Shown here: positions 18,019-27,248 of the stretch, one piece after another | Layout of the letters: every line of letters starts with the position of its first letter | Numbering within the stretch: position 1 is the first letter of the stretch | Source: Candidatus Aquabacterium excrementipullorum | Lineage (GTDB): Bacteria > Pseudomonadota > Gammaproteobacteria > Burkholderiales > Burkholderiaceae_C | Assembly: GCA_019112875.1 (NCBI GenBank) | Contig: DXIO01000083.1 | Coordinates: 1 to 43,416 of the forward strand | Length of the DNA: 43,416 nt | Direction of reading: 5' to 3' | Made by a program: the position numbers and the translations under genes | The notes under the pieces: generated by a model | The model's input: only the letters and a program-made list of their open reading frames with translations | Told to the model about the DNA's origin: nothing | The model's database searches: none

Positions 18019-18339
18019 GCTTTCCGTCGCATGCGGCGAGCGGGGCACCAAGAGGGCTGAGCCGGCATCCGGCCGGGCGCCTTGAGGGTGCCGAGGAGCG
18101 CAGTGGTGAGGTGGGCGCGCGCAGCGCGCTTCGTCAACTGACTCGCTGCCCTTGTTTGAACGGAGCGCCTGAAGGGCGCGCAGTGAGTTGGGCAGCGCCA
18201 CCTCACCGCGAGCACCACAGGGAAGTCCCGCCGAAGGCGGGACCACCCGAATGAAGCCTGGCCGGATGCCGGCTCAGCCCCCGCCCCGCGCTCTCACGCC
18301 AAAGCGCCAGACCCAAGCAGGCAAAGGAAAAAGCAGCCC
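18019..18339. other. Non-coding gap holding a palindromic element
   Basis: No gene is supported in these 321 bp between the hybrid kinase and the convergent flavin reductase. Most of it is the 227-bp palindromic element listed separately; the remaining flanks show nothing I recognise. Confidence 0.6.
18054..18280. repeat. 227-bp nested palindromic element with 21-bp terminal inverted repeats
   Basis: The ends are a perfect 21-bp inverted repeat (18054-18074 with 18260-18280). Two further arm pairs are nested inside: GGTGAGGTGG/CCACCTCACC (18105-18114 with 18198-18207) and CGCTGCCC/GGGCAGCG (18144-18151 with 18190-18197). A side hairpin GTCCCGCC-GAA-GGCGGGAC lies at 18225-18243. All pairs are compatible with one long branched hairpin. 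There is no T-tract and no open reading frame of interest, and I see no target-site duplication. It resembles dispersed palindromic repeats of GC-rich Burkholderiales (impression, not searched). Confidence 0.75.
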
Positions 18340-19661: not shown

Positions 19662-20561
19662 TCAGCCTTGCGGGCCGCGCAGCTTGTCGATCAGGCCGTT
19701 GAGCTCGTCGAGCGAGCCGAACTGGATCGTCACCTCGCCCTGCTCGCCGCGCTTGGTGCGGCGCTTCACGTTGATCTCCACCTGCGCGGTGAGCAGGTCG
19801 GAGAGCTCTTCTTCCAGGCGCAGCACGTCGCGGGATTTGTCCTGCTTGACGCGCAGCAGCGGCGTCTGGCGCCCTGCCCCGTTCACCTTGGCGACGAGCT
19901 TTTCGGCGTCGCGCACATTGAGCTTCTTGCCCGCGATCTCGTGCGCGGTGGTGATCTGCACGGCCTTGTCCAGCGGCAGCAGCGCGCGGGCGTGGCCCAT
20001 GTCGATGTCGCCGGCCATCAGCATGGCCTGCACGGGTTCGGCCAGGTTCAGCAGGCGCAGCAGGTTGCTGGCGGCGCTGCGCGAGCGGCCCACGGCCTGG
20101 GCGGCCTGCTCATGCGTGAGGCCGAACTCCTGCGTCAGGCGCTGCAGGCCCTGGGCCTCTTCGAGCGGGTTCAGGTCTTCGCGCTGGATGTTCTCGATCA
20201 GGGCCATCACGGCGGCGGCCTCGTCGGGCACCTCCTTGACCAGCACGGGCACTTCGGTGAGCCCAGCCAGCTTGGCGGCGCGCGAGCGGCGTTCGCCGGC
20301 GATGATCTCGTAGCGTCCGCTGCCGATGGGGCGCACCAGGATCGGCTGCATGATGCCCTGGGAGCGGATGCTCTCGGCCAGTTCGTACAGCGAGCCCTCG
20401 TCCATGCGCGTGCGCGGCTGGTACTTGCCGGCCTGCATCAGGTCCAGGCGCAGGGTGGTGGGCGCGCCGGGCACGGCTTCGGCCGCGGGGGTGTCGCTGA
20501 CCTTGGGGCCCAGCAGGGCCTCCAGGCCGAGGCCGAGGCCCTTGGTTTTCTTGGTGGCCAT
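19662..20561 (-). CDS. parB: Chromosome partitioning protein ParB
   Basis: 299-aa centromere-binding CTPase clamp that loads at parS and spreads on the origin region. The N-terminal K-K-T-K-G-L-G-L-G-L-E-A-L-L is the usual ParA-contacting start of chromosomal ParB. ParB/Srx box residues are present, including G-E-R-R-S-R-A at 89-95 (CTP-binding motif) and E-N-I-Q-R-E-D-L-N-P-L-E-E-A. The helix-turn-helix is about 147-170 and a C-terminal dimerisation region is present. The ATG at 20559-20561 fits the family. It is separated from parA by a hybrid kinase, a P450, a tetR gene and a repeat region, although the two usually adjoin. Three parS sites lie at 28562, 28808 and 30430. Confidence 0.96.
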   Translation of the reverse strand: MATKKTKGLGLGLEALLGPKVSDTPAAEAVPGAPTTLRLDLMQAGKYQPRTRMDEGSLYELAESIRSQGIMQPILVRPIGSGRYEIIAGERRSRAAKLAGLTEVPVLVKEVPDEAAAVMALIENIQREDLNPLEEAQGLQRLTQEFGLTHEQAAQAVGRSRSAASNLLRLLNLAEPVQAMLMAGDIDMGHARALLPLDKAVQITTAHEIAGKKLNVRDAEKLVAKVNGAGRQTPLLRVKQDKSRDVLRLEEELSDLLTAQVEINVKRRTKRGEQGEVTIQFGSLDELNGLIDKLRGPQG

Positions 20562-20645
20562 GAGAGTGGTGTGTCGGGAGATGGGGCGCAACGTGCGCGC
20601 GCGCGGAGAGCGATGGTAACAAACCCCTTGGGGCGGGGGGAGCGA

Positions 20646-20796
20646 CGGAGCGGGGGCGATGGGTGCCTGCTCTCGGCCCACGCTCGCGGGGCCGCACCGC
20701 GCATGGCCACCCTCACCTCGTCAAGACCGGCCAAGCTTGCCACCAGCCATGACACCGCGAATGGGGCCTTCGCAGGCACCCATCGCCCCCACTCCG
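20646..20796 (+). repeat. Structured repeat unit X (151 bp)
   Basis: Its ends are complementary 25-nt arms (20646-20670 with 20772-20796, 24 of 25 pairs). Inside, a 29-bp block at 20674-20702 and a 14-bp block at 20755-20768 are identical to blocks in unit Y, which lies in the opposite orientation. The 52 bp between the blocks is only partly conserved, sharing short islands such as ACCGGCCA. The arms themselves do not resemble those of unit Y. Confidence 0.8.
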
Positions 20797-20807
20797 CTAG
20801 ACGCCAA

Positions 20808-20847
20808 AAGGAGAAGAGGCGAACCCAACGGTTCGCCTCTTCTCCTT
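20808..20847. repeat. Central 18-bp hairpin, possible tetR terminator
   Basis: A perfect 18-bp stem (20808-20825 with 20830-20847) with a 4-nt CAAC loop lies between units X and Y. Read on the minus strand it is followed by TTTTGG, so it could act as a weak terminator for tetR about 190 bp upstream; on the plus strand the following bases are C-rich. Confidence 0.7.
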
Positions 20848-20875
20848 CCCCCACCCCACGCGCTGGCTGGTTCGG

Positions 20876-21024
20876 GGGTTCGGTGGCTGGGTGGGCGGGC
20901 GCAGGCCCCATTCGCGGCGTCCTGCCGGTGCCCCGCCTGGCCGGTGTTCAGGCGGCCAACGAGGCAGCGCGCGGTGCGGCCCCGCGAGCGTGGGCCGGAG
21001 AACGCCCACCCAGCCACCGAACCC
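20876..21024 (-). repeat. Structured repeat unit Y (149 bp, inverted relative to X)
   Basis: Arms 20876-20897 and 21003-21024 are perfectly complementary over 22 bp. On the minus strand the unit has the same order as X: arm, 29-bp block (20969-20997), about 51 bp of variable middle, 14-bp block (20904-20917), arm. Blocks are identical to X; arms are not. Unit Y ends 15 bp before the tetR stop codon. Confidence 0.8.
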
Positions 21025-21038
21025 AAGCTCAAAACCAG

Positions 21039-21689
21039 TCAGTGCTCCCGAATCAACTCCCAGACCATGCGCACGAGCTCATCCTCGAACGCCTGCGTGC
21101 CCAACAGCGGCGAGTTCTCCAGCGACGCCGCGCGGATCGTGCCGATCACCGCCCGCGTCGCCACGAACAGCAAGGCCGGCGTCGGCGCCCGCAGCCCCGG
21201 CTCGCGCGCCTGCACCTGCGCCCACGCGATGGCGATGTGCTCGGCCCCCTCGCGCTGCGCCTGCGCCACCGTGTCCACATGGTCCATCTGCCAGGCCAGC
21301 TTCACGATGGCGCGGTTCAGCGCGTTGCCCAGCCCGAAAGCCTGGATCAGCGCTCGGATCCGCAGTCGCAAACCCTCCAGTGGCTCCTGCCGCCCGGCCG
21401 CCACCTCCAGCAGCACGGCCTGCATCTCGTTCATCACGCGCTGGCGCTCGTCCGCGATCATCGCGTGCAACACCGCCTCCTTGCTCGGGAAGTACTGGTA
21501 GAGCGTGCCCACCGAGAACCCCGCCAAGCGCGCGATCTTGTTGGTGCTGAGCGCGGCCAGCCCTTCGTTCTCAATGATCTGAGCAGTGGCTTGATAAATC
21601 ATCCGCACGGTGTGCAGCGCACGGCCCTGCACGGGGGCCTTGCGCATGGTTTTCTGCTGGGCGGCGGTGGTCTGGCGAGGTCGGGCCAT
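21039..21689 (-). CDS. TetR-family transcriptional repressor
   Basis: 216-aa regulator. The N-terminal helix-turn-helix (about 35-75) reads L-S-T-N-K-I-A-R-L-A-G-F-S-V-G-T-L-Y-Q-Y-F, followed by P-S-K-E-A-V-L, diagnostic of TetR. The C-terminal ligand-binding half is variable, as usual. It is transcribed divergently from the P450 gene across 116 bp that contain a perfect palindrome (21750-21764), so it probably represses the P450 gene and itself and is released by a P450 substrate (inference). Start at the ATG at 21687-21689. Confidence 0.9.
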   Translation of the reverse strand: MARPRQTTAAQQKTMRKAPVQGRALHTVRMIYQATAQIIENEGLAALSTNKIARLAGFSVGTLYQYFPSKEAVLHAMIADERQRVMNEMQAVLLEVAAGRQEPLEGLRLRIRALIQAFGLGNALNRAIVKLAWQMDHVDTVAQAQREGAEHIAIAWAQVQAREPGLRAPTPALLFVATRAVIGTIRAASLENSPLLGTQAFEDELVRMVWELIREH

Positions 21690-21749
21690 GGTCGAAAAGC
21701 AAAACTGAGCAGTAAGCGAGCCGCAAACGAGTTGCCACGGCGTCAATAC

Positions 21750-26438: not shown

Positions 26439-27248
26439 TCAGTCCGCGCGGCGACGGCGGCGGGCGGCCAGCGCCATGCCCGCGAAGCCCAGGCCCATCA
26501 TGGCCCAGGTGCCAGGCTCGGGCACCGAGGGCATCACCAGCGTGCCTTGCGCGACGATGGTGGAGGTGATGGAGCCGTAGTCGGACACGCCCTTGATCGT
26601 GCTCAGGCCCAGGTCGATCAGGCCCAGCGCCGAGGCGAAGTTGTTCAGGCCGGCCTGGGTGATCTTCAGGCCGGAGATCACGTTGGTGTAGCTGCCCGCG
26701 CCCACCTGCACGTTGGTCGGGCCGGTCAGGCTGGCGAAGTCCCAGAGGTAGAAGTTCTGCAGCGTGGTGGCAGAGGCACCCGACACGCCTGAGAAGTTGC
26801 CGGTGAGGTCGGCGTACACGCGCTTCTGGGTGAGGTCGACGCTCAGGTTCGCCACCGTGATCGAGCCGCCTGTGGACACGCCCGCCAGCGGCGCGATGGT
26901 GAGGGTGGCGCCGCCGCGCGAGCCTGCGGCCAGCACGTCACCGGTGGTGTCGTCCACCGTCATGAAGCTCAGGGGGGCGTTGGCGGTCACACCCGTGCGC
27001 ACGGAGCCGAAGGGCGGCTGGGCGGTGTAGACCTCGTTCACCGCGGCGGGGGCCACCGAGGTGAAGACCACCTTGCCCACGTTCAGGGCCGTGACCAGGC
27101 TGGAGCTGAAAGACAGGACGGCGTTGCCGCCCACCAGGGTCAGGCCCTGGTGCGTTTCGCCGGGCAGCGCGGTGATGGTGCCGGCCTGAGCCAGACCGGC
27201 GGTGGCGATGATGGAAGCGGCCACCAGCGACTTGACGTTGAACTTCAT
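26439..27248 (-). CDS. PEP-CTERM sorting-domain protein
   Basis: 269-aa exported protein. A Sec signal peptide (M-K-F-N-V-K-S-L, cleavage after A-Q-A) is followed by a Ser/Thr/Gly/Val-rich mature region without Cys and with beta-type alternation. The end is a textbook sorting signal: V-P-E-P-G-T-W-A-M-M-G-L-G, a short hydrophobic helix and A-A-R-R-R-R-R. It has no recognised functional domain. It sits alone with its own terminator between rsmG and parA, an unusual place inside a housekeeping block, and depends on the exosortase elsewhere. Confidence 0.92.
   Translation of the reverse strand: MKFNVKSLVAASIIATAGLAQAGTITALPGETHQGLTLVGGNAVLSFSSSLVTALNVGKVVFTSVAPAAVNEVYTAQPPFGSVRTGVTANAPLSFMTVDDTTGDVLAAGSRGGATLTIAPLAGVSTGGSITVANLSVDLTQKRVYADLTGNFSGVSGASATTLQNFYLWDFASLTGPTNVQVGAGSYTNVISGLKITQAGLNNFASALGLIDLGLSTIKGVSDYGSITSTIVAQGTLVMPSVPEPGTWAMMGLGFAGMALAARRRRRAD

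Follow-up and report, generated by a model that had tools for sequence, protein, structure and literature searches.

MITEs are short, geneless and dispersed sequences with inverted ends. The attC sites of integrons are long imperfect hairpins that are strand-specific and in which pairing is conserved above sequence, and in IS200/IS605 elements both hairpins lie on the same strand. These IS200/IS605 hairpins are sub-terminal and, as PMC6006769 describes them, are recognised as single strand. REP and REPIN sequences are presented in PMC3733652 and PMC6006769 as paired inverted palindromes of intergenic gaps, mainly convergent or unidirectional ones, for which mobilisation in trans by an enzyme that cleaves the folded single strand has been proposed. 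A single REP unit is a palindrome of 20-40 bp in the account of PMC3733652, and PMC2817692 gives a copy number that is usually above 100.

The composite described here comes from Candidatus Aquabacterium excrementipullorum (contig DXIO01000083.1), from a window of 43,416 nucleotides, the whole stretch of DNA that was analysed. It is positioned between two tandem genes, for a TetR-family regulator and ParB, and consists of two long stem-loops, X and Y, inverted relative to each other on either side of a centre hairpin (Table 1). The strand that runs 5' to 3' from the centre to the outside at each end is termed the F strand; it is the opposite of the unit strand. Folded as a single strand, positions 20600-21040 give z = -11.6 against 100 dinucleotide shuffles, none of which was as stable. 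An earlier reading made from the sequence only had reported the paired units with their common blocks, the long complementary arms and the hairpin between them; on recomputation the arm and hairpin pairs came out the same, and the longer common block is identical in the two units and inverted in Y. The second common block, which that reading gave as 14 bp, is present in both units with a length of 15 bp, and the structure it measured at 379 bp belongs to an insertion that is a little longer.

Table 1. Parts of the composite in the window and its flanking genes
Feature	Position	Strand	Remark
Composite insertion, whole	20633..21038		boundaries approximate, by eye against the empty G025 locus
End unit X, long stem-loop	20646..20796	-	strand given is the selected (F) strand
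X arm, outer	20646..20670		pairs 24/25 with 20772-20796
X arm, inner	20772..20796		partner of X outer arm
29-bp block in X, common to Y	20674..20702	+	
15-bp block in X, common to Y	20755..20769	+	
Centre hairpin, 18 bp (18/18), 4-nt loop	20808..20847		stem 20808-20825/20830-20847
End unit Y, long stem-loop, inverted relative to X	20876..21024	+	strand given is the selected (F) strand
Y arm, inner	20876..20897		pairs 22/22 with 21003-21024
Y arm, outer	21003..21024		partner of Y inner arm
29-bp block in Y, common to X	20969..20997	-	
15-bp block in Y, common to X	20903..20917	-	
parB, flanking gene outside the element	19662..20561	-	PF02195, PF17762, PF23552
TetR-family regulator, flanking gene outside the element	21039..21692	-	PF00440

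The element resembles MITEs in being short, geneless and dispersed with inverted ends, but its ends conserve fold more than sequence and no target duplication was seen by eye at loci whose flanks have diverged. It differs from IS200/IS605 in that opposite strands are selected at its two ends and in having no internal transposase gene. With REP, BIME and REPIN sequences it shares the inverted unit pairs, seen in 34 Aquabacterium composites (a tandem arrangement in genome G348 is the exception), and an intergenic placement, mainly in convergent or unidirectional gaps (32 and 23 of 60, respectively). Unlike a REP, it has two end types; its units, about 150 nt long and measuring 149-151 bp in the window, fall outside the 20-40 bp palindrome of PMC3733652, and its copies number about 1-20, where the usual REP number given in PMC2817692 exceeds 100. 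We file it as REPIN-like in the way it works and do not place it in the REP family. The element is apparently undescribed: a search for it and for the closest kinds in titles and the starts of abstracts returned no description, a weak negative confined to open-access papers.

Two end types and their distribution

A DNA search of the genome of origin recovered four X/Y pairs (in the window and on contigs C107, C30 and C38) and a lone Y (C46). The DNA search of 61 genomes gave matches in 12, all of them in the genus of the window (12 of 37 genomes of that genus), with about 10 loci in G001. A covariance model, R1, added G026 and G218 within the genus; in the family it found the unit in 31 of 299 genomes and 20 of 141 genera, and among 399 genomes drawn from the order it matched 3, all of the same family. 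Filters in these family and order searches were stricter and 7-10 candidates were scored in each genome, so that the copy numbers they yield are lower bounds. A pattern scan of named genomes returned 47 stretches and added Ideonella and Roseateles records amid chance matches. The plasmid and phage collections held no match to the window element, and the plasmid collection none to the element of G150. In viral contigs a 17-letter pattern gave five loci, none credible by R1 (best E 0.014), and a 21-base pattern gave none.

Alignment A1 was assembled from 126 candidate units, of which 103 passed the filters and 77 remained without duplicates; with six restored by hand it comprises 83 units from Aquabacterium, Ideonella and Roseateles. 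Alignment A2 holds 65 of these 83. A second set consists of 72 units that were both found and aligned by R1, all but one from other genera.

Composites were defined as neighbouring units on opposite strands, a definition that excludes same-strand pairs; all those found face the same way. All 34 opposite-strand pairs in Aquabacterium consist of one X facing one Y, the label being a forced choice made from the arms, and it is because each pair has this make-up that we regard X and Y as the two ends of one element. Inside one genome, mean arm identity is 0.85 between units of the same type and 0.53-0.54 between types, and core identity is 0.85 and 0.80, respectively. Among 54 units from five genomes, the nearest arm neighbour was of the same type for all 54, a partly circular result as the types were set from the arms, and the nearest core at another locus belonged to the same end type for 52, which is the fairer evidence. 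The sequence-only reading had treated the X and Y arms as unrelated, changing ends and on that ground had argued against a transposon-type repeat. The two sets of arms are indeed unlike each other, but they are not free, since each type recurs. That argument was too strong: other copies exist, and in them the arms of each end are like those of the same end type elsewhere, so by that reading's own test the element is also an ordinary two-ended dispersed repeat.

A centre hairpin with a score of at least 12 is found in 28 of the 34 Aquabacterium composites. The exception to the facing arrangement, G348, has its F units in direct tandem with a spacing of about 206 bp (L215 5067-5625 and L216 4724-5069). 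At another locus, L184 850-1652 of G189, about 500 bp of other sequence separates X from Y; by eye, this includes a short ORF of some 46 codons. For a possible outer stem between the two far flanks, the flanks of a composite paired no better with each other than with those of other loci in Aquabacterium, where permuted flank pairings were as good in 1910 of 2000 cases, and only weakly better in the others (112 of 2000 permutations as good); such a stem is not claimed here.

Conservation of the fold and the selected strand

Across the 65 units of A2, 97.9% of arm cells are paired on the F strand, so the arms pair in other copies as the sequence-only reading had anticipated. Compensatory changes, with both sides altered, occur in 22 of the 22 arm pairs in A2. 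These double changes uphold the proposal that a stem is selected, while its companion, that the ends change freely, is too strong. Over the whole structure 96.1% of cells are paired in A2, a level that shuffled partners reached in 0 of 500 trials, and sliding the partner columns by 1-3 positions lowers pairing to 39-47%. Against a tree-based null with independent sites, arm pairs filled the top 13 ranks out of 10,178 column pairs, and 10 of these 13 were never reached in 20 tree simulations. In the apical loop no column pair stands out in the covariation test; the apical sequence of the units is conserved. The 72-unit set, mostly from other genera, shows the same helix with 95.7% pairing, as a set that leans towards the model.

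The mismatches left in the arms distinguish the two strands. Read on the unit strand, the arm cells of A1 comprise 1,564 Watson-Crick pairs, 88 A.C, 2 G.T and 35 others, and on the F strand the same cells read as 88 G.U against 2 A.C. Counted as pair-column entries, A.C or C.A occurs at 25 and G.T or T.G at 2, the sequences being related and the cells not independent. Because the leftovers are so unequal, the selected strand is taken to be F, the opposite of the strand read, and the suggestion that a single strand is favoured is borne out. The unit finder favoured G.T over A.C, so this bias runs against the method. In the set mostly from other genera the F strand has 116 G.U against 5 A.C in 51 distinct arm sets, a count that leans towards G.U because the model used both to find and to align this set had been trained on the F strand. 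As F is read away from the centre at either end, selection falls on opposite DNA strands at X and at Y.

Near-perfect arms that change together could also be produced with no selection for folding, by template switching (quasi-palindrome correction) during replication. Such a process does not predict the 88-to-2 strand bias of the leftover mismatches, and the unpaired apical columns show no matching mutation bias, with C>T in 21 columns and G>A in 13 on the unit strand, which is the reverse direction. We consider this explanation improbable.

Insertion sites, neighbouring genes and transcription

Several observations bear on mobility. Three copies at different loci of G150 share 98.7-99.6% identity along 444-453 bp, and their similarity breaks off at the same ends. 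Of 17 relatives searched, only G025 has the two window flanks next to each other, and its locus is empty: in its parB-TetR gap about 24 bp take the place of about 406 bp of the window, between flanks that can be aligned on either side. In G001 the L062 and L063 loci are filled, and all three relatives, G017, G028 and G033, have them empty; at L063 these three have terminator-like hairpins (by eye) where G001 has the composite. Some insertions replace native sequence. G252, G720 and G724 have no composite at the L199 locus of G150; G325 and G721, in which the flanks are about 4 kb apart, and G723, which gave no flank pair, were not counted as empty. From the number of empty relatives, counted without a species tree, we infer gain rather than loss. 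No target-site duplication was seen by eye at the four empty-site loci, where the flanks have diverged. Most G150 copies end in CGGCCC..GGGCCG, and the ends in Aquabacterium are not sharp.

Two further features of these loci were observed. In G150, 18 of 22 copies or fragments have the same chromosomal orientation (two-sided binomial P about 0.004; 17 of 20 and P 0.003 in another test), with no clear relation to position. At L075/L081, G033 and G017 are 99% identical in one flank and 88% in the other, possibly a recombination edge near the element.

Copies favour gaps between convergent genes. Of 68 loci, 8 were dropped because a flanking gene lay beyond 350 bp. The flanking genes of the remaining 60 composites were convergent in 32, tandem in 23 and divergent in 5, four of the latter being one orthologous locus; of 164 background gaps at least 30 bp long from the same loci, 14 were convergent and 50 divergent. 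The resulting P of 4.5e-12 is too small because several loci are orthologues, and the genes were called by a home-made codon score, with approximate coordinates for six G150 loci. This placement would suit a BIME-like host function, as a bidirectional terminator or as a supercoiling or nucleoid site between convergent genes, and so would the centre hairpin of most Aquabacterium composites and the replacement of terminator-like hairpins at L063. A terminator scan, however, did not call the centre hairpin, which is rejected as a strong terminator, the sites are empty in relatives, and a 3' UTR role for the proximal gene would select the unit strand, whereas it is F that is selected. A function of this kind seems unlikely to us.

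The strand bias alone does not identify the folded molecule as DNA, since RNA tolerates G.U no less well than DNA tolerates G.T. The units could be a pair of structured RNAs, with the F strand transcribed from an outward promoter, as antisense or by read-through, and the DNA spreading by other means. Strand-specific tolerance of G.U, strong covariation and a conserved apical sequence are all consistent with this, and between convergent genes each flanking transcript could read one F unit. Read-through RNA predicts the decay of those F units that the flanking genes cannot transcribe, but the 29 such units are kept about equally, with 3.9% bad cells against 2.8% in 74 readable units (P = 0.62); these copies may have inherited their structure from before insertion. 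No sigma-70-like promoter was detected in the three composites scanned, other promoter types being outside the scan, and since the units are just 46 nt apart in L131 and in L198 of G150, divergent transcription from the centre looks unlikely. Searched against Rfam, the whole window gave no match over the gathering score, and 20550-21120, at E up to 10, gave 14 matches, all below their gathering scores and none credible. The balance leans towards folded DNA without settling the question, and we regard paired RNAs as a possible but doubtful reading.

The reading we prefer, with an even chance in our estimate of being correct, is that the element is a mobile repeat of about 400-470 bp, non-autonomous and two-ended, with strand-specific hairpin ends that would be acted on, as folded single-strand DNA, by an enzyme supplied in trans. 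This hypothetical enzyme would recognise each end in its folded single-strand form, by analogy with TnpA-REP on REP/REPIN and IntI on attC, and the same enzyme would move the composite. Insertions would survive mainly behind genes, above all between convergent ones.

Candidate enzymes and related hairpins

The Y1_Tnp domain (PF01797) is absent from 13 of 27 carriers tested (G000, G001, G017, G025, G026, G028, G032, G033, G150, G722, G348, G177 and G157) and present in 14, including the copy-rich G130, G313, G061 and G160. Its absence from these 13 excludes it as the general mobiliser and sets the element further apart from REP sequences.

The sequence-only reading had also raised an attC-type recombination substrate. 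The units are indeed long strand-specific hairpins in which pairing is kept more than sequence, as attC sites are, and the integron integrase model TIGR02249 scored over its cut-off in 14 of 20 genomes searched, a count made in carriers only. They are nevertheless not attC: the complementary RYYYAAC/GTTRRRY pair of R boxes was found in 0 of 47 composites, although a similar scan with slightly different limits finds attC-like sites in the integron regions L352, L353, L356, L357, L361 and L363, with seven rows in the G722 integron region. The units also form mostly facing pairs, not cassette arrays. In 14 integron regions R1 gave no match with E below 0.6, and TIGR02249 had no match over cut-off in G313, G348, G173 and G338 and only broken pieces in G219 and G061. 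A relative of attC moved by a chromosomal integron integrase is, in our judgement, very improbable. The chromosomal integron integrase regions L363 (G722), L357 (G150) and L361 (G160) have attC-like sites that are 72-127 bp long.

A second long-arm hairpin occupies positions 18054-18280 of the window, in a gap flanked by a histidine kinase gene and an ORF that opposes it, with 25-bp arms containing one mismatch and an interior of about 177 nt. Its core matches hairpins of G722 (L282/L289), which in turn match L215 4740-4965 and L216 9116-9366 of G348. This hairpin and its matches are a second family of the same style; the second-family hairpin has no BLAST match to X or Y and none in the plasmid collection. 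In L215 of G348 the tandem F units adjoin a second-family hairpin, and the G722 counterpart of the L199 locus (L282/L289, G722:C4) has a second-family hairpin together with a terminator-like hairpin (by eye). Elsewhere in the window, positions 26439-27248 encode a predicted PEP-CTERM protein (PF07589).

We suggest, more tentatively than the mobile repeat itself, that both long ends of the element would be recognised as folded single strands by an enzyme of neither the Y1/REP nor the integron type, and that the element may be one of at least two families of long-arm hairpins in convergent gaps. Whatever the folded molecule, this is an element without an Rfam entry, and its 83 aligned units and 72 further matches provide an unusually clean natural data set for a stem that persists as its letters are replaced, and from whose leftover G.U pairs the active strand can be read. 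If the ends act as RNA, they would be an overlooked paired RNA family of this bacterial family; if they are recognised as folded DNA, the missing enzyme would represent a new single-strand recombination system.
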